A DNA stretch of 40,843 nucleotides from contig JAITSO010000027.1 of NCBI GenBank assembly GCA_031287735.1, positions 1 through 40,843 on the forward strand, written 5' to 3'. This stretch comes from Elusimicrobiota bacterium (GTDB lineage: Bacteria > Elusimicrobiota > Endomicrobiia > Endomicrobiales > Endomicrobiaceae). The position numbers and the translations under genes were made by a program. Below are positions 293 to 27,420 of the stretch, piece after piece. The notes below the pieces were generated by a model. The model worked only from the letters and a program-made list of their open reading frames with translations, was not told where the DNA came from and searched no databases. The number at the start of each line of letters is the position of its first letter. Positions within the stretch are counted from its first letter, which is position 1.

Positions 293-1342
293 ATGAGAAT
301 TAATATCATGCTTTTGATTATGCTGTTTGTTTTAGCAATGTGCGGTGTTTTCTACCCAGTAGTAGAATTTTTGAGTGAACAAAAACTTGGGGATTTAGAA
401 AAAGCTGATATTTTAAATGCAAAGACTGCCGTGCGAGTGTGCATTCCTTCCATAAATAAATCTCTTGAACAGTTTGACGATATAGATTTGCTATCTTACA
501 TTAGCTCTATAGCACGTGTTGACAATATAAGTTCTTGCACAATTTTAGATAGAAGCGGGAATATAGAGCTTAATAGCAAAGGTGCTGTAGCTGCAAATGG
601 TGCGGATCTAAAATCTAAAATTTACGTTAATGCTTTAAACAGCAACGAGGAAATTTTACAAAAGATACCAAGCAATTCCAACCACTTGTTGTTTTCTGTA
701 CCTCTTACAAATAATAACTTTATGTTTTGCATTTTATCTGTAGAAAGAGCTAAAGAAATGGCTAAATATTGGAAAATTAAATATTATGTTATCGCTATCT
801 TTACCACAATGATTTTAGCTTTTGCTTTATATTTTATAGCAAAATTTACAATCCTCATCCCATTTGATAAAACTAAAAAGGATTTGGAAAGATTGCCTTT
901 AAATGAAATAAAAAGCGGAAAATACAATTCACTGGTAGATGTTTTTGTATACAAGAGTGCCAAGGAACGTGAGCATCTTATTTTGACACAGGAAAACAAT
1001 GAGAGCTTAAAGAAAATAGTCTTAAAATTGCAGGTAGATTTATCTAAAGAATACGATATTTTTGTAATACTTGACTTTCTCAACAATGTAGTTTTTGCAA
1101 AAGACTTTAAAAGCATGTTTTTAAAAGAAAGTTACTATGCAGGAAGTGATCATATTTTTGAAATTGCAAAAAGCTGTGACTTTGTAAAACTAATTGCTAA
1201 GGCAAACGAGCAGAAATTGGAACTTATTCAAGAAAGCATAAATAATTATTTTTTTGCCGTTACTTCAATAGTAGAAAACAATAAACTTTACGGCACTTTA
1301 ATTAAAGGAAAAATCATTTCTAATTTACCTGAAATAAATTAA
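293..1342 (+). CDS. Two-TM membrane sensor-like protein (Cache/PAS-like)
   Basis: This 349-residue protein has a hydrophobic N-terminal segment (about residues 5-25) and a second membrane segment (about 164-184), so about 140 residues lie outside the cytoplasmic membrane and about 165 inside. The outer part contains a run like VLD-x-SG-x-I (TILDRSGNIELNS) typical of Cache/PAS ligand-binding folds. The inner part has a PAS-like stretch (IFVILDFLNNVVFAKDF). No HAMP, kinase, methyl-accepting or GGDEF domain is visible, so it is an input module without an obvious output. It heads a same-strand cluster followed 33 bases later by the SpoVG-like protein and then two diguanylate cyclases, which suggests a sensory role in that pathway. 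The ATG at 293 has only a weak ribosome-binding site. Family assignment is by fold-like pattern only. Confidence 0.6.
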   Translation: MRINIMLLIMLFVLAMCGVFYPVVEFLSEQKLGDLEKADILNAKTAVRVCIPSINKSLEQFDDIDLLSYISSIARVDNISSCTILDRSGNIELNSKGAVAANGADLKSKIYVNALNSNEEILQKIPSNSNHLLFSVPLTNNNFMFCILSVERAKEMAKYWKIKYYVIAIFTTMILAFALYFIAKFTILIPFDKTKKDLERLPLNEIKSGKYNSLVDVFVYKSAKEREHLILTQENNESLKKIVLKLQVDLSKEYDIFVILDFLNNVVFAKDFKSMFLKESYYAGSDHIFEIAKSCDFVKLIAKANEQKLELIQESINNYFFAVTSIVENNKLYGTLIKGKIISNLPEIN

Positions 1343-1375: not shown

Positions 1376-1939
1376 ATGAAACTAAAACTAAAACTGGTGC
1401 TATTTTTTTTCTCTTTTTGCTTTTTATTAAACAATAAGTGTTTTGCGGGTTTGAAGCTTACTGACATCTCGTCCGATAAAGAAAAATACGATATTGTTTT
1501 AAACGGAGAGATAAAAATTTCAAAAATATATTTTAAAGGTGGCCAGCTAGTTCTTCCACACTATCAAAATGGAAATAAAATCTATAAACATTTTAGTGTT
1601 TTAAAGAGAGATTTCAAAAATTATTTAGCAAAATCTATTTTTCAAAAACAGGTTGTTCAGCAAAGCGGTAAAACGCCTTTCAAAATAAACAAAATGTTGC
1701 TTTCACGTAAGTCGGGTAACATAAAAGCTTTTGCTTCTGTAATTTTTGCCGACGAATTGGAAGTTAATGTACGTGTTATGGAAAGCAAGAGTTCCATTTG
1801 GATTGCGTATCCTTCAAACAAAAGCAATGGGGTTTGGCAAGATACGTTTAGTATTTTAAATCCGAGCTTAAAGGAGGCCATAGAGGAACATTTAATGAAA
1901 CTTTACCGTTATGAAAAATCTAAAAAAAGCAATAATTAA
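1376..1939 (+). CDS. Exported protein with two SpoVG-like units
   Basis: This 187-residue protein starts with a clear signal peptide (lysine-rich start, hydrophobic run rich in F and L, cleavage likely after CFA at residue 24). Residues about 102-173 match the SpoVG pattern closely: G-x-IKAFASV-x-F-x-DE, then V-x-VRVMES, then a PSNK turn, a D before the INPS-like segment, and a helix ending LMKLY. Residues about 25-92 look like a second, more diverged copy (LNGEIKISKIYF followed by LVLPHYQNGNK). SpoVG proteins are normally cytoplasmic, single-domain, nucleic-acid-binding regulators of about 90-100 residues. A secreted tandem form is unusual, and its function is unknown. Its last 29 bases overlap the next cyclase gene, implying co-translation. 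The SpoVG assignment rests on motif reading, without a profile search. Confidence 0.65.
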   Translation: MKLKLKLVLFFFSFCFLLNNKCFAGLKLTDISSDKEKYDIVLNGEIKISKIYFKGGQLVLPHYQNGNKIYKHFSVLKRDFKNYLAKSIFQKQVVQQSGKTPFKINKMLLSRKSGNIKAFASVIFADELEVNVRVMESKSSIWIAYPSNKSNGVWQDTFSILNPSLKEAIEEHLMKLYRYEKSKKSNN

Positions 1940-3341
1940 AACTTTAAAAAATAAGCAGTTTATAGATATAATTTCAACGCTAATTTTACCTCTGCTATGC
2001 GGATTTTTTTTTATAGTTTGGTTTTTTTGTTTGATAAAATATCCTGTTTTAGTTTTTCCGTCAATTTCTATTCCAATAATAGTGCTGTATTATTTTTCAG
2101 GAAACGTATACGGAGGAATTTTTGCGGCTTTTGCAGTAGCAGCTGGATTTTTGAATATTCTTTTTGTTACTAAAAAAAATGATTCTATTGCACTCGCTTG
2201 CGAATGCATTGCGACAGTGTGGTTGTTTATAATTTTGGAAGCATATCGCAGTAAATATGTCGGTCTTAAAAATGCTTTTTTAGGCGAACATGATAGACTT
2301 ATCAGAGAGATTTCGCTCAAAGAATCAGAAATAGCGGGCAACAATAAAATTGCTGAGGTTTTAAGTTATCAGATAAAGACTTTTAGACAAATCGGAAAAA
2401 TTATTCAGTCATTTCAAGTTTTTGTCAATGACGAGGTGATACATGAGAAGTCAGAATATATGGCTTTTAAATTTGTAGGAAAAGGTTTTTGGAAATTAAA
2501 AAATTTTGAATCTGGAGTATTAGAAAGTTCTATAGAAAAAAATTCTCTTTATACCCATATAAAAAAAACTTCTTCTCCAATAATTATTGACGATGCTAGC
2601 ATTTCGGGATGCTTCAAAACAGCCCAAAATTCAAACAGACTCTCCATTATAGCTGCTCCGCTTATATTTGAAAAAAAATTTTTTGGTATTCTTGAAGGGA
2701 CATCTTGCGTAAAAGGGTTTTTTTCGCAAGATGACTTGCGAAGATTGGTGCTTTTGTCTGAAACAATTTCAGCGGTTTTAAACAATGCTTCTCTTTATAG
2801 ACATTTAGAAACGCTTGCAATTACAGATGGGTTAACTGACCTTTACACCCAATCACATTTCAAGGAAAGAGTAGAAGAAGAATTAGACATCGCGCAAAAT
2901 AATAACTTATCGCTTTCTTTGGCAATTTTGGATGTAGATTTTTTTAAAGACATTAACGATAAATACGGTCATCAAGCCGGCGATGCAGTATTGAAACAGT
3001 TTTCATCTTTTTTGCAAAAAAGGCTAAGCAGAGAATATGTTGATTTAATATCTCGCTATGGCGGTGAAGAATTTGCATTTGTAATTTTTATAAAGAAACC
3101 TAACGATGTCAAAAAATTTCTTGACAAATTGCGTCAAGATGTCGAAAAAGAGCTTTTTTTTCTGTCAGGCGATTGCTTTTATCCAACTTCTGTAAAAATA
3201 ACTATAAGTATAGGGTTTGCTTCTGTTAAAAAAGGAGTGTCGGTAGTTGTCAATGATTTTATAAAAAATGCTGATGCGGCTCTGTATGAAGCCAAAAATA
3301 GCGGAAAAAATAAAGTAGTGTCGTTTGTTTCTAATTCTTAA
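1911..3341 (+). CDS. Membrane GAF-GGDEF diguanylate cyclase (no I-site)
   Basis: This 476-residue protein makes c-di-GMP from two GTP, judging by its domain. Residues about 20-110 form several membrane segments. A helical linker follows (about 115-155), then a GAF-like sensor region (about 160-295) and a GGDEF domain (about 305-476). The catalytic motif is intact (GGEEF at 384-388), as are the Mg/GTP-binding DVDFFKDINDKYGH segment and the closing ADAALYEAKNSGKN motif. The product-inhibition site is not canonical: the position that should be R in RxxD is E375 (E375-Y-V-D378), with the arginine displaced by one. Feedback inhibition may therefore be weak or absent. The start overlaps the SpoVG-like gene by 29 bases. 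An AAGGAGG at 1871-1877 is too far upstream to serve this ATG directly, so translational coupling is likely. Confidence 0.9.
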   Translation: MKNLKKAIIKTLKNKQFIDIISTLILPLLCGFFFIVWFFCLIKYPVLVFPSISIPIIVLYYFSGNVYGGIFAAFAVAAGFLNILFVTKKNDSIALACECIATVWLFIILEAYRSKYVGLKNAFLGEHDRLIREISLKESEIAGNNKIAEVLSYQIKTFRQIGKIIQSFQVFVNDEVIHEKSEYMAFKFVGKGFWKLKNFESGVLESSIEKNSLYTHIKKTSSPIIIDDASISGCFKTAQNSNRLSIIAAPLIFEKKFFGILEGTSCVKGFFSQDDLRRLVLLSETISAVLNNASLYRHLETLAITDGLTDLYTQSHFKERVEEELDIAQNNNLSLSLAILDVDFFKDINDKYGHQAGDAVLKQFSSFLQKRLSREYVDLISRYGGEEFAFVIFIKKPNDVKKFLDKLRQDVEKELFFLSGDCFYPTSVKITISIGFASVKKGVSVVVNDFIKNADAALYEAKNSGKNKVVSFVSNS

Positions 3342-3346
3342 AAATT

Positions 3347-4684
3347 ATGGGGAAAAAGCTTTTCATTTTAGTTATTTGCACCACTTTTATTTTGCTCATA
3401 TATTTTTGTCTGGCAGATGTCAGCAAATATATTATATGTGCATCTTTTATTGCTCTTGCTGGGTTTCACTATTCATTTTGGGTTAGACACTGCGTATGCC
3501 TCACGTCTGTGGTAGCGTTTGTTTTAATTGCTCCATATATTAAATTTTATCCTTTTATAACGGTGTCGCTTTGTTTGCTTTTTATGTCAATTATCCCTTT
3601 GCCGTACTACTTCCGCAATAAATTAAAAAAACGTAAAGAAAAGTATTACGCAATAAGCAAGAACTTAAAGGTTAAGCACTCTTGCATACTTTCAAGTTAC
3701 AAAGAGTCTTTTCAGGTTAGACGCAGATATGAAAGTTTTGTGGAAAGGATAGTGCAAAATTATATTATCGGGAATAAGCTCTTAAAGTGCAGCTCAAAAG
3801 AGATTTTTGTGCAGAATATATTGAGTTTTCTGAAAGAAAAAAAAATTATTAATGGAGCGGCAATTTTCGAGCTAACTAATTCAAATTGGAATATACTTGG
3901 AGCTTTTGGGAGTATTAGCAATAAAAACTTAATACCCAAAATTTGCTACATAAAAGATATTGGTCGATACTATGAAAAAACTTTACTGTCAAAAGATGAA
4001 GATGATGTGGAAAATACATCAAAAATTTATTTGCCAATAGTAAATGCGAATGAACTTTTAGGGGCTGTTATTGTATCAGTGCAGGTTGGCGAACTTGAAA
4101 ATTTTATTGAAGAAACGTCTTTTTTCATTCCCCAAATTTCCGTAAGTTTAAAGAGACTAAAATTATTTGACTACATAAACGAGCGTTCGCGTGTAGATGG
4201 TCTTACGGGTTTATATACTAAGCACTATTTTCTGCAAAGATTAGAGGTTGAAATGTCAAGGCAAAAGCGCTATGGAAAAGGTTTTTATATTTTAATGATA
4301 GATTTAGATTTTTTTAAATGTCTAAATGATAAATATGGGCATCTGTTCGGGGATAAAATCATTCATAAGGTTGCTAAGTCAATACGCTCATCAATAAGAC
4401 GTGGAGACTTAGCTGGTAGATACGGTGGCGAAGAATTTATAGTTTTTTTACCCACAATCTCGCAAAAAATTGTTAGAAACACTGCTGAAACCATAAGACA
4501 AGCGGTTGCAAATTTAGAATTTGAAAGTAATGGAGAAAAAATCAAAGTAACTTTAAGCACCGGTGTAAGCAGCAATTCAAAAAAATCTAAAAACGTTGAA
4601 AATATAATTGCAAACGCCGACAGTGCATTATATGAGGCCAAGAAAACTGGACGCAACAAAGTTATTAGTTATGATAGTATGTAA
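3347..4684 (+). CDS. Membrane GAF-GGDEF diguanylate cyclase (with I-site)
   Basis: This 445-residue protein has about four N-terminal membrane segments (residues 4-90), a basic helical linker, a GAF-like region (about 130-270) and a GGDEF domain (about 280-445). The active-site GGEEF is at 360-364, and the metal/GTP segment reads DLDFFKCLNDKYGH. The inhibitory site RxxD is present (R351-R-G-D354), exactly five residues before GGEEF, so this enzyme should be feedback-inhibited by c-di-GMP. The gene starts five bases after the previous cyclase ends and shares its architecture, which suggests an old duplication followed by divergence. No EAL, HD-GYP or PilZ protein is seen nearby, so the c-di-GMP target must be elsewhere. 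Confidence 0.9.
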   Translation: MGKKLFILVICTTFILLIYFCLADVSKYIICASFIALAGFHYSFWVRHCVCLTSVVAFVLIAPYIKFYPFITVSLCLLFMSIIPLPYYFRNKLKKRKEKYYAISKNLKVKHSCILSSYKESFQVRRRYESFVERIVQNYIIGNKLLKCSSKEIFVQNILSFLKEKKIINGAAIFELTNSNWNILGAFGSISNKNLIPKICYIKDIGRYYEKTLLSKDEDDVENTSKIYLPIVNANELLGAVIVSVQVGELENFIEETSFFIPQISVSLKRLKLFDYINERSRVDGLTGLYTKHYFLQRLEVEMSRQKRYGKGFYILMIDLDFFKCLNDKYGHLFGDKIIHKVAKSIRSSIRRGDLAGRYGGEEFIVFLPTISQKIVRNTAETIRQAVANLEFESNGEKIKVTLSTGVSSNSKKSKNVENIIANADSALYEAKKTGRNKVISYDSM

Positions 4685-24198: not shown

Positions 24199-27100
24199 AT
24201 GCAAAATCCCACTAATAAAGCATCTCTGTTGAGAATGGTGATATTTTTTATTGGTTTTAGCTTGTTCTCTGCACAAGCGGTAGTGTATGCGGCAGATGTG
24301 TCGTCGTATTCTTATTTTTATGAATTGCTCAATGAAAACTCTGCCGGGCAACTTCAATTAATACGTCATATCTATTGTCCCGGAACTTCTCGCGTTGATA
24401 TACATTCGGTAAAAACCATAAATGGCTTATCAACAACACTTGATGGTGCGACTTGGCTTTCCATATATTTCACAAGCTCTACCCAAGGTGGTCTTTTTTT
24501 GAATGAAAACTCCATACTTCAAATAATAAATTCAAACCTCAACTTTTCAGAATCAGGGACTGCTATTTCAGCTTTTCCTAATTCTATTTTAACCGTGTCC
24601 AACTCTTCTGGTGTGTTTAACAATAATAACGCAACAACAAATGGTGGTGCGTTTGATTTCTCGTCTTCGAGCGGTGTATTTTCAAATACTATTTTTAAGT
24701 TTGACTCAAATTCGTCTTCACAATATGGTGGAGCAATTGCTGCTGAAAACAATGCTTCAATTTTTTTCTCGACATCCCACGTTGTATTTGTTGGCAATAG
24801 TGCAAAATACGGAGGGTCAGTAGCCACTGCAAATTCGGGCGGAAATTTTACCATAAAAAACTCAGAGCTTGCTTTTTTGAATAATACTGCTGATTTAGGA
24901 GGAGCAGTATACGTTGGTTCAAAATTTAGCGTTTTAAGCACTCAAGTAAATTTTATAGATAATGTGGCCAAAAGTTCAGGCGGGGCAATTTTTGTTGCAA
25001 GTGGCGGCAAACTGTCCATTGAAACAGGTCCAAGAGCCAATATTAATTTTATTGGGAATTCAGCTGAAGTTGCTGGCGGAGCGTTGTATATGTCTCAAAA
25101 TTCAGCAGTTACCATAATGTCTAACGGTGGAAAAGTGATTTTTAGCGAAAATCGGTCTGCAGGCAAATCAAATGATATATATTTAGAGCAAGGTTCAAAT
25201 TTGCAACTGCAAGGGTACAACAATGAAATTATCATTGAGAGTGGTATAAATTCTGTCGGTAGGTCAAGCATTATAAAATCTGGTGGTGAAAGTTTGTCAA
25301 TTGGTGGCGATAGTGATATAGGTAGTTCTTTATTCTCGATAGTAGAAGGCGATATGGTACTTTTAAAAGATGCCAATTTAAAAGGAAACGGTGCTGTTCT
25401 CATGATAGACGATTTTTCTAAATTCAATATGGCGAATTCTTTTGTAAACACCGTTGCTGTGGCTACATTCGTCAATAGATTGGAAGTTGAGATGGATGTA
25501 TTTAGTTGCGGAAAGCATGATGCAATAATTGCTGACAACGCTACGCTCGGCTACAAGCTGTCAGTCAGACCTTCTCTTGGAACATATGGTGCTCATCGGG
25601 AGTATTTATTAATCCAAGATACTGGTTTTGATAAAGGAATAACAATTTTTTCTCTTTTAGATACTAATTTAAAGATTATTGGTGGTTATGACTTTGATGT
25701 TGATATCAGTAAGGGGTTATTTTTAAAACTCGGGCAAGATTTTAAAGTGGGTACTAATTTTTCATCATTGGAAGGTTTAACTTATAATCAGTTTCAAATG
25801 GCTAAGAATTACGATGCTTTGACGCTTACTAGTTTTGTGGACGTAGACAATTTTGGCGATGTTTTAAATGTTGTAGCTAACGATACAACAGACAGCAGAA
25901 GCACTATAAGAGAATTTCTAAAAGCATCTTCACCTTATTTTTATGCAAATGTTGTTAGAGGTGTTGCCAGTGTAAATGATAACAAGGAAATTTATGATAA
26001 AATGTGGAGCAGGATAGATAATAAAAGCAATTTTTGGATACAAACTGTCGGCGAAAAAAGGGAATTCCGCGAAGATGGCAATTCAACTTACCGTTGCATC
26101 AATAGAAATTACGGTTTGATGTTTGCTTTTGATAGCTACATAACAGATAATTTTAAAGGTGGGATTTTCGGAAAATATCTAAAAAATGATATAGCACAAG
26201 GCAACAATAGTGCTGAAGTTGATAGTTTCGGTGGTGGTTTTTACGGTGGTTATATAGGTAAAAATGTGGAATTGAAAGCTTTGTTGTCTGGAATGCAAAA
26301 TCGTTATTTAACTGAAAGAGTCATAGATTTTAATGAAGGTAGCTTTGAAAGTGGCAATGTCGCAAATGCAGAATTTTTAGGCGTCTCTGTAGGCGTTGAT
26401 TTAGAATTTTCATATAAAATGCTTTTTAGTGAAAAAATTTTAATTTCGCCGTTTGCAGGCGTAGAATTTAGAGAAACAGCTTTTAAATCATTCACGGAAA
26501 AAGGTGTGCAGCCTTATAATTTTGAAATATGTGATACGGATTACTTAAGAGGCGAATCTAGAGTAGGTGCTAGAGTTAGATACGATAATTACGGTTGGAG
26601 CTGGTATGGAAGTGTGTACGGTTTGTATCTGTTTTCTGGAAAAGAACCGGAAATAGAGGCAAGCTTTGACAGGGCTTACGAAAAATTTAAAGCAAAAGGA
26701 TTCAGTGAAAAAGAGCTTATTGCTGTTTTAGGTTTAGGATTGTCAAAGGAAATCTCAAAAAATATCAAGCTTTACATAGATTGCGGTTATTCCAATGGAG
26801 CTGAATACCGAAACATTAGTGCAAATTTTGGAATAAGATATAATTTTGGACAGCTTGGCGAAGCCGTGGATATAGTTCGGAGACAAAAAACAAGTATTAG
26901 CGAAGCAATGAGAGATTTAGGCAAAGATGACGCTGAAGCAGAAGATTACAATTGCATTACTCTAGACAGTTTTAGCCCACCACCGTTTCACACAAAAGAG
27001 GCGGCTATGTTAAGAAGGGAAAAGATTAGCACTGCTCGGCTGCAAGAGCCAGTAATAAGAAATGGAGAAATACTAGGTGTTTTGAGGCAAGTTACAGTAA

Positions 27101-27420
27101 ACACTACACATTTTGAAATAGGCGATTTTGACCTAACTGCTAAAGCCAAAAAAATTATAGCTGAAATTGCAAAAACAGCTATAAAAAAAAGTTATTCAAA
27201 AATAACAGTTGAAGGACATACTGACAATACCGGAAGTGAACAAATCAATAATATTTTATCTTTACAGAGAGCATTAGTTGTTGTTGAACAGCTGATGCGT
27301 CAAGGTGTAGACATTAGCAAAATACAATTTGCCAATTATGGGTATACAATACCAGTAGCGTCAAACGAAACGTCCGAAGGCAGATCTTTAAATCGCAGAA
27401 CTGAAATCTTCGTAGAATAA
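24199..27420 (+). CDS. Autotransporter with Pmp-type repeats fused to an OmpA domain
   Basis: This 1073-residue outer-membrane protein has four parts. (1) A signal peptide (residues 1-32). (2) A passenger of about 550 residues, predicted beta-helix, with repeated GGA-hydrophobic and FxxN-type motifs (GGAFDF, FDSNSS, GGAIAA, FVGNSA, GGAVYV, FIDNVA, GGAIFV, FIGNSA, GGALYM, FSENRS), the hallmark of chlamydial polymorphic membrane proteins. (3) A beta-barrel of the autotransporter type (about residues 610-900), beginning FWIQTVGEKREF and closing with an aromatic-ended strand ISANFGIRYNF. (4) After a linker, an OmpA/MotB peptidoglycan-binding domain (about 965-1073) with EGHTDNTG and a closing NRRTEIFV. 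Normal autotransporters end at the barrel, so a periplasmic OmpA domain after it is unusual. A GGAG ribosome-binding site precedes the ATG. Confidence 0.88.
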   Translation: MQNPTNKASLLRMVIFFIGFSLFSAQAVVYAADVSSYSYFYELLNENSAGQLQLIRHIYCPGTSRVDIHSVKTINGLSTTLDGATWLSIYFTSSTQGGLFLNENSILQIINSNLNFSESGTAISAFPNSILTVSNSSGVFNNNNATTNGGAFDFSSSSGVFSNTIFKFDSNSSSQYGGAIAAENNASIFFSTSHVVFVGNSAKYGGSVATANSGGNFTIKNSELAFLNNTADLGGAVYVGSKFSVLSTQVNFIDNVAKSSGGAIFVASGGKLSIETGPRANINFIGNSAEVAGGALYMSQNSAVTIMSNGGKVIFSENRSAGKSNDIYLEQGSNLQLQGYNNEIIIESGINSVGRSSIIKSGGESLSIGGDSDIGSSLFSIVEGDMVLLKDANLKGNGAVLMIDDFSKFNMANSFVNTVAVATFVNRLEVEMDVFSCGKHDAIIADNATLGYKLSVRPSLGTYGAHREYLLIQDTGFDKGITIFSLLDTNLKIIGGYDFDVDISKGLFLKLGQDFKVGTNFSSLEGLTYNQFQMAKNYDALTLTSFVDVDNFGDVLNVVANDTTDSRSTIREFLKASSPYFYANVVRGVASVNDNKEIYDKMWSRIDNKSNFWIQTVGEKREFREDGNSTYRCINRNYGLMFAFDSYITDNFKGGIFGKYLKNDIAQGNNSAEVDSFGGGFYGGYIGKNVELKALLSGMQNRYLTERVIDFNEGSFESGNVANAEFLGVSVGVDLEFSYKMLFSEKILISPFAGVEFRETAFKSFTEKGVQPYNFEICDTDYLRGESRVGARVRYDNYGWSWYGSVYGLYLFSGKEPEIEASFDRAYEKFKAKGFSEKELIAVLGLGLSKEISKNIKLYIDCGYSNGAEYRNISANFGIRYNFGQLGEAVDIVRRQKTSISEAMRDLGKDDAEAEDYNCITLDSFSPPPFHTKEAAMLRREKISTARLQEPVIRNGEILGVLRQVTVNTTHFEIGDFDLTAKAKKIIAEIAKTAIKKSYSKITVEGHTDNTGSEQINNILSLQRALVVVEQLMRQGVDISKIQFANYGYTIPVASNETSEGRSLNRRTEIFVE

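Follow-up and report, generated by a model that had tools for sequence, protein, structure and literature searches.

A very probably exported protein of two SpoVG-fold units, conserved over much of Elusimicrobiota and encoded beside membrane diguanylate cyclases in Endomicrobiales

To our knowledge, SpoVG has been described solely as a cytoplasmic nucleic-acid-binding regulator. Proven SpoVG proteins bind both DNA and RNA (PMC3688583, PMC4959528), and DNA binding requires each of two adjacent basic residues of the protein (PMC3688583). A search of the open-access literature yielded no description of a SpoVG that is exported or in tandem. Two other systems resemble the present locus in part. 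In the YfiBNR system of Pseudomonas, a small periplasmic protein, YfiR, is encoded beside a membrane diguanylate cyclase, YfiN; YfiR is not of the SpoVG fold, and YfiN includes a periplasmic domain. ComEA-like exported helix-hairpin-helix proteins are also exported and have a nucleic-acid-type fold, although that fold is unrelated to SpoVG.

The window, that is, the whole stretch of 40,843 nucleotides analysed here, comes from a genome placed in Endomicrobiaceae (phylum Elusimicrobiota), a termite-symbiont lineage. The open reading frame at 1376..1939 on the forward strand was verified, and its 187-aa product is confirmed to consist of a signal peptide and two SpoVG-fold units. The features of the protein and of the putative operon around it are as follows.

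293..1342, + strand: upstream gene of the putative operon, 349 aa, two membrane segments predicted by reading (ORF)
1376..1939, + strand: double-SpoVG protein, 187 aa, very probably exported (ORF, Pfam SpoVG, AlphaFold2, Foldseek, orthologues)
1376..1447, + strand: signal peptide, residues 1-24, predicted cut between CFA and G (sequence; 63 of 63 full-length orthologues; A24)
1451..1642, + strand: SpoVG-fold unit 1, residues 26-89, a diverged copy (hhalign with controls; orthologue units at or near the Pfam cut-off; own model)
1679..1915, + strand: SpoVG-fold unit 2, residues 102-180 (PF04026; phmmer to 2i9x; Foldseek)
1911..3341, + strand: membrane diguanylate cyclase 1 with GGEEF motif (PF00990, 119 bits; conserved adjacency; active-site motif)
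3347..4684, + strand: membrane diguanylate cyclase 2 with GGEEF and an RxxD inhibitory site (PF00990, 158.7 bits)

Both units share fold and colinear sequence with SpoVG (PF04026; PDB 2ia9, 2i9x, 2i9z), and unit 2 shares its motifs as well. The SpoVG motifs that a first-pass annotation had quoted for unit 2 all occur letter for letter, and residues 111-178 match Pfam SpoVG PF04026 with 44.8 bits (E 1.4e-11) against a curated cut-off of 29.6 bits, which makes the unit a member of that family. By sequence alone, phmmer connects it to the crystal structure 2i9x (E 2.9e-4). Unit 2 carries conserved tryptophans, reading GLWIAWPS where classical SpoVG reads GLFVAMPS. The NCBIfam equivalog for the septation regulator SpoVG (NF009749) gives 31.7 bits against a cut-off of 108 bits, and the 187-aa protein is therefore not the orthologue of SpoVG; nor, with its signal peptide and two units, is it a cytoplasmic single-domain protein as the septation regulator is.

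Unit 1 of the window protein has no Pfam match by itself. Built from 60 rows, a profile of unit 1 nevertheless matches 35 classical SpoVG proteins of the phylum over its full length without a shift in register (hhalign P 1e-7, probability 94%); the two units also match each other in profile comparison (P 1.4e-7). Composition does not account for the match: the reversed profile yields P 0.18, and 150 column shuffles all stay below the score. In the distant orthologue L179, unit 1 alone scores 32.7 bits, above the Pfam SpoVG cut-off, so that the membership of unit 1 in PF04026 is established through profile comparison, this orthologue and the fold. The AlphaFold2 model (26 sequences; pLDDT 91.8, pTM 0.81) consists of two repeats with near-identical strand and helix order, a helix closing each. 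When the model is compared with the PDB by Foldseek, the top seven matches are chains of SpoVG crystal structures (probability 1.00, TM 0.68-0.78 by target length) and the next best match after SpoVG has a probability of 0.13; the best E-value is modest, 5.7e-3, because the units are short. SpoVG is thus the only credible PDB match of the predicted structure. Unit 1 modelled alone (pLDDT 89.7) also ranks SpoVG first (probability 0.90-0.99, TM 0.58-0.63, E 0.15), and the earlier suggestion that the first unit is a diverged copy holds up in the profile comparison, in L179 and in both models.

A signal peptide had likewise been proposed, and the N-terminus MKLKLKLVLFFFSFCFLLNNKCFA followed by G has the corresponding pattern. 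A hydrophobic segment (mean Kyte-Doolittle of at least 2.07 over 12 residues) lies immediately ahead of unit 1 in 63 of 63 full-length orthologues, A24 is invariant among 11 close orthologues, and the exported double-SpoVG proteins have Ala-rich cleavage sites of the typical kind. Two relatives from another, small phylum bear a lipobox, LMLTAC in L186 and VVSC in L190; their N-termini, …FLMLTAC and …FVVSC with the cut before G, are joined to a long acidic or alanine-rich linker. It could still be argued that the hydrophobic N-terminus anchors the protein in the membrane or stems from a wrong start, and that the protein is a cytoplasmic SpoVG, as five of the 63 full-length orthologues, some of them distant, have no ATG at the expected position, and a replacement would be convenient in this genome, from which classical SpoVG is absent. 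However, in all 63 proteins unit 1 begins right behind the hydrophobic segment and would be truncated by a later start; together with the typical Ala-rich cleavage sites, the lipoprotein signals of the two relatives and the presence of classical and exported forms together in genomes of other genera, this makes a non-exported protein highly improbable. Almost certainly, then, the protein is a Sec-exported single chain of two SpoVG-fold units, representing one old family of Elusimicrobiota with one small sister group. Judged from the sequence, the signal peptide would be cleaved to leave a small, basic, soluble periplasmic protein. The mature proteins are basic in 37 of 37 cases (pI 8.9-10.2); classical SpoVG proteins of Elusimicrobiota range from pI 5.9 to 9.3, so they can be basic too.

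The double-SpoVG protein is encoded in 51 of 77 genomes of Endomicrobiaceae and in 29 of the 32 that are of good quality. Across the phylum (f, g, G, C and L denote our families, genera, genomes, contigs and loci), the double form occurs in families f1-f5, f7-f10, f17, f18 and f26-f28, with weaker versions in f15 and f21; only the classical single-domain SpoVG is seen in family f14 and in most of f24 and f25. Three genomes of the other, small phylum (named records: groundwater bacterium) also encode the double protein, two of them with the lipoprotein signal, and additionally hold two or three cytoplasmic SpoVG. No plasmid-borne relatives of the double-SpoVG protein were found. In a tree of the units, unit 1, unit 2 and classical SpoVG form three separate groups (supports 0.98, 0.70 and 0.97), which fits one old duplication. 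Classical SpoVG proteins of the phylum, with frames of 98-120 aa, score about 110 bits, and none was found in the genome of the window, which is 99.98% complete; a second SpoVG-like place in that genome (C39, 14.5 bits) is half a domain within a 364-aa frame and was taken as chance. In genera g3 and g4, the exported form alone reaches a significant score and classical SpoVG is missing, while g5, g10 and g13 have both. The exported form persists in Endomicrobium lineages without classical cytoplasmic SpoVG, and dN/dS values of 0.17-0.51 between close orthologue pairs indicate purifying selection. In G009, G041 and G020 (L149, L150 and L153), which are protist-associated relatives, the SpoVG gene is stop-broken or split, and it is therefore being lost in part of the symbionts. 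In G294, the gene for the exported double SpoVG occurs twice in tandem (L118:1618-3382).

Outside Endomicrobiales, the surroundings of the gene vary by family, and the idea of one general neighbour family was rejected; only a theme of barrels and helix-hairpin-helix proteins recurs. In f10, f17, f18, f27 and f28, the neighbours are outer-membrane barrels, which match UPF0164/TraF_2/PorP_SprF, or exported helix-hairpin-helix proteins, joined by secreted proteins with lamin-tail or FlgD_ig/CHU_C domains. By genome-wide counts, the helix-hairpin-helix matches that lie a few kilobases or less from the SpoVG gene are 4 of 4 in G291, 4 of 5 in G294, 2 of 4 in G297 and 2 of 4 in G301, with none near the gene in G295, so that this nearness is not just abundance. 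The f15 gene lies near those for a HAD hydrolase, an S8 protease, DUF192 and a PilB-type ATPase that carries an MshEN domain. Barrels with C-terminal ComEA-like helix-hairpin-helix domains adjoin lamin-tail secreted proteins and the SpoVG gene at L126:4455-11999, L118:131-8834, L132:118-4988 and L210:476-5515, and this barrel/helix-hairpin-helix/lamin-tail/SpoVG operon of several Elusimicrobiota families looks undescribed. A conserved multi-helix membrane protein lies between the SpoVG gene and the cyclases in f4 and directly follows the gene in f17, f18 and f26; it has 263-282 aa and no Pfam family, and was seen in four taxonomic families (L210:4110-4943, L203:5504-6349, L128:6532-7344 and L125). 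Its possible kinship with the membrane part of cyclase 1 was rejected, the match covering only 29 columns (P 5e-4).

These neighbourhoods bear on whether the protein has kept the old SpoVG ligand on the other side of the membrane, acting as a periplasmic or surface nucleic-acid binder, for instance in DNA uptake. The capacity of SpoVG for DNA and RNA (PMC3688583, PMC4959528), the basic character of every mature protein and the exported helix-hairpin-helix genes close by in f10, f17, f18, f27 and f28 all speak for such a role, as do the R-K doublet kept in unit 2 by many orthologues outside Endomicrobiaceae and the retention and expression of competence genes by Endomicrobium species, in which the passage of DNA across the outer membrane is not known (PMC8809381). 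Known SpoVG, however, is cytoplasmic and of one unit, whereas the Elusimicrobiota form is exported, has two units and, in Endomicrobiaceae, has lost the DNA-binding basic doublet. In the window protein, the residues after PS read PSNK in unit 2, leaving N-K in place of the doublet, and the corresponding stretch of unit 1 reads LPHYQNGNK; both basic residues are kept in 2 of the 13 Endomicrobiaceae members tabulated. Because the essential doublet is lost, nucleic-acid binding is weakened as an explanation for the window protein. Furthermore, an exported helix-hairpin-helix protein, such as neighbours the SpoVG gene in several other families, was not seen in Endomicrobiaceae, either next to the gene or elsewhere (G044 has none, and that of G000 lies in a 722-aa frame), and no com gene is linked to the operon. 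Overall, we regard a nucleic-acid binder as unlikely here; a nucleic-acid ligand for the double SpoVG is likelier outside Endomicrobiaceae.

Within Endomicrobiales, the context of the gene is of a different kind. The 349-aa upstream gene, 33 bases ahead of the SpoVG gene, has no Pfam or NCBIfam family and no homologue at the same position in the other loci. Downstream, the final 29 bases of the SpoVG gene are shared with the ORF of cyclase 1, and cyclase 2 starts 5 bases past cyclase 1. Of the loci examined, 33 have the cyclase pair after the SpoVG gene, among them representatives of f2, f3, f4 and f5, with one extra membrane gene in between in f4, and 63 of 63 cyclases counted retain the GGEEF or GGDEF active-site motif. 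Beyond these two cyclases, the genome of the window has no GGDEF gene, and the same is true of G012, G013, G048, G045, G038 and G288; an operon shared with the genome's only two GGDEF genes suggests a signalling link. As in YfiBNR, a small, very probably periplasmic protein is encoded in a conserved operon with a membrane diguanylate cyclase, but neither the fold nor the sequence of YfiR is present, as only SpoVG was matched in the Pfam, NCBIfam and PDB searches. The periplasmic domain of YfiN is apparently lacking too, since reading of the cyclases reveals no large periplasmic domain for signal reception.

The genome of the window yielded no known c-di-GMP receptor of the PilZ or MshEN type, so that positions 1911-4684 encode a c-di-GMP circuit without a recognised effector in that genome. 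Unit 2 was considered as a tPilZ receptor and rejected (E 0.02-0.09, below cut-off and overlapping the SpoVG match). Elsewhere in the window, the 1073-aa product of positions 24199-27420 reads as an exported protein: NNxA-type segments recur in it, its C-terminus resembles that of an autotransporter, and its end is OmpA-like. G044 and G004 have zero GGDEF genes, yet their SpoVG gene is intact and under purifying selection. Conversely, f6 and G287, which lack the SpoVG gene, retain the cyclase pair, and no hidden, diverged SpoVG was found upstream of the pair in G287, G289 and G290. The link is therefore not obligatory, and neither partner needs the other.

The most likely role is that of a periplasmic binding or adaptor protein linked to envelope signalling. 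As a whole, the explanation that we tentatively prefer, while rating it a little short of probable, is that the exported double SpoVG is an envelope binding or adaptor protein that has become joined to the cyclases in Endomicrobiales. The packing of the two units would probably mimic a SpoVG dimer, one unit in place of each subunit, and create a binding surface through which the protein could bind an envelope partner or act as its adaptor; candidate partners in the wider context are the outer-membrane barrel proteins and the exported helix-hairpin-helix proteins. In Endomicrobiales, it would be joined to the pair of membrane diguanylate cyclases, and a periplasmic ligand or the state of the envelope might thereby reach the cell's only c-di-GMP synthases, much as YfiR, with its unrelated fold, acts on YfiN. 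This mechanism, a basic periplasmic pseudo-dimer that binds an envelope partner and passes its state to the cyclases in Endomicrobiales, is put forward somewhat more hesitantly than the explanation as a whole. A stricter version, in which the double SpoVG is itself the periplasmic signal receiver, sensing an envelope or extracellular ligand and controlling the cell's only two diguanylate cyclases, appears doubtful; if true, it would be a c-di-GMP input of an undescribed kind, derived from a cytoplasmic nucleic-acid binder.

The cyclases may also merely share a transcript with an envelope housekeeping factor, one concerned with outer-membrane protein biogenesis, peptidoglycan or another polyanion. 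In favour is its presence in 29 of 32 good family genomes, among them very reduced symbionts without cyclases, where the gene is under purifying selection; the varied neighbours elsewhere, including outer-membrane barrels, the S8 protease and DUF192, and the conserved tryptophans of unit 2 (GLWIAWPS, against the classical GLFVAMPS) are also consistent with such a factor. A transcript shared by chance does not, however, predict a three-gene order kept across five families, and no envelope enzyme is consistently adjacent, so that housekeeping alone is not a likely account. Returning to the binding or adaptor protein, the recruitment of the SpoVG fold proposed in the first-pass annotation stands as far as the exported side is concerned (sequence, profile, structure prediction, 63 orthologues and lipoprotein relatives), while a nucleic acid, a glycan and a signalling partner, which it offered as targets, are each no more than candidates.

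The SpoVG domain itself is already known; what appears to be new is its duplicated, exported form. A cytoplasmic nucleic-acid-binding fold that has been doubled, exported and conserved over much of a phylum offers a clear, testable case of a move to the periplasm, and in the Endomicrobium symbionts examined the exported double SpoVG is the only SpoVG-family protein left. As such, it may give access to c-di-GMP signalling and to the envelope of intracellular symbionts of the termite gut, an area that is barely known.
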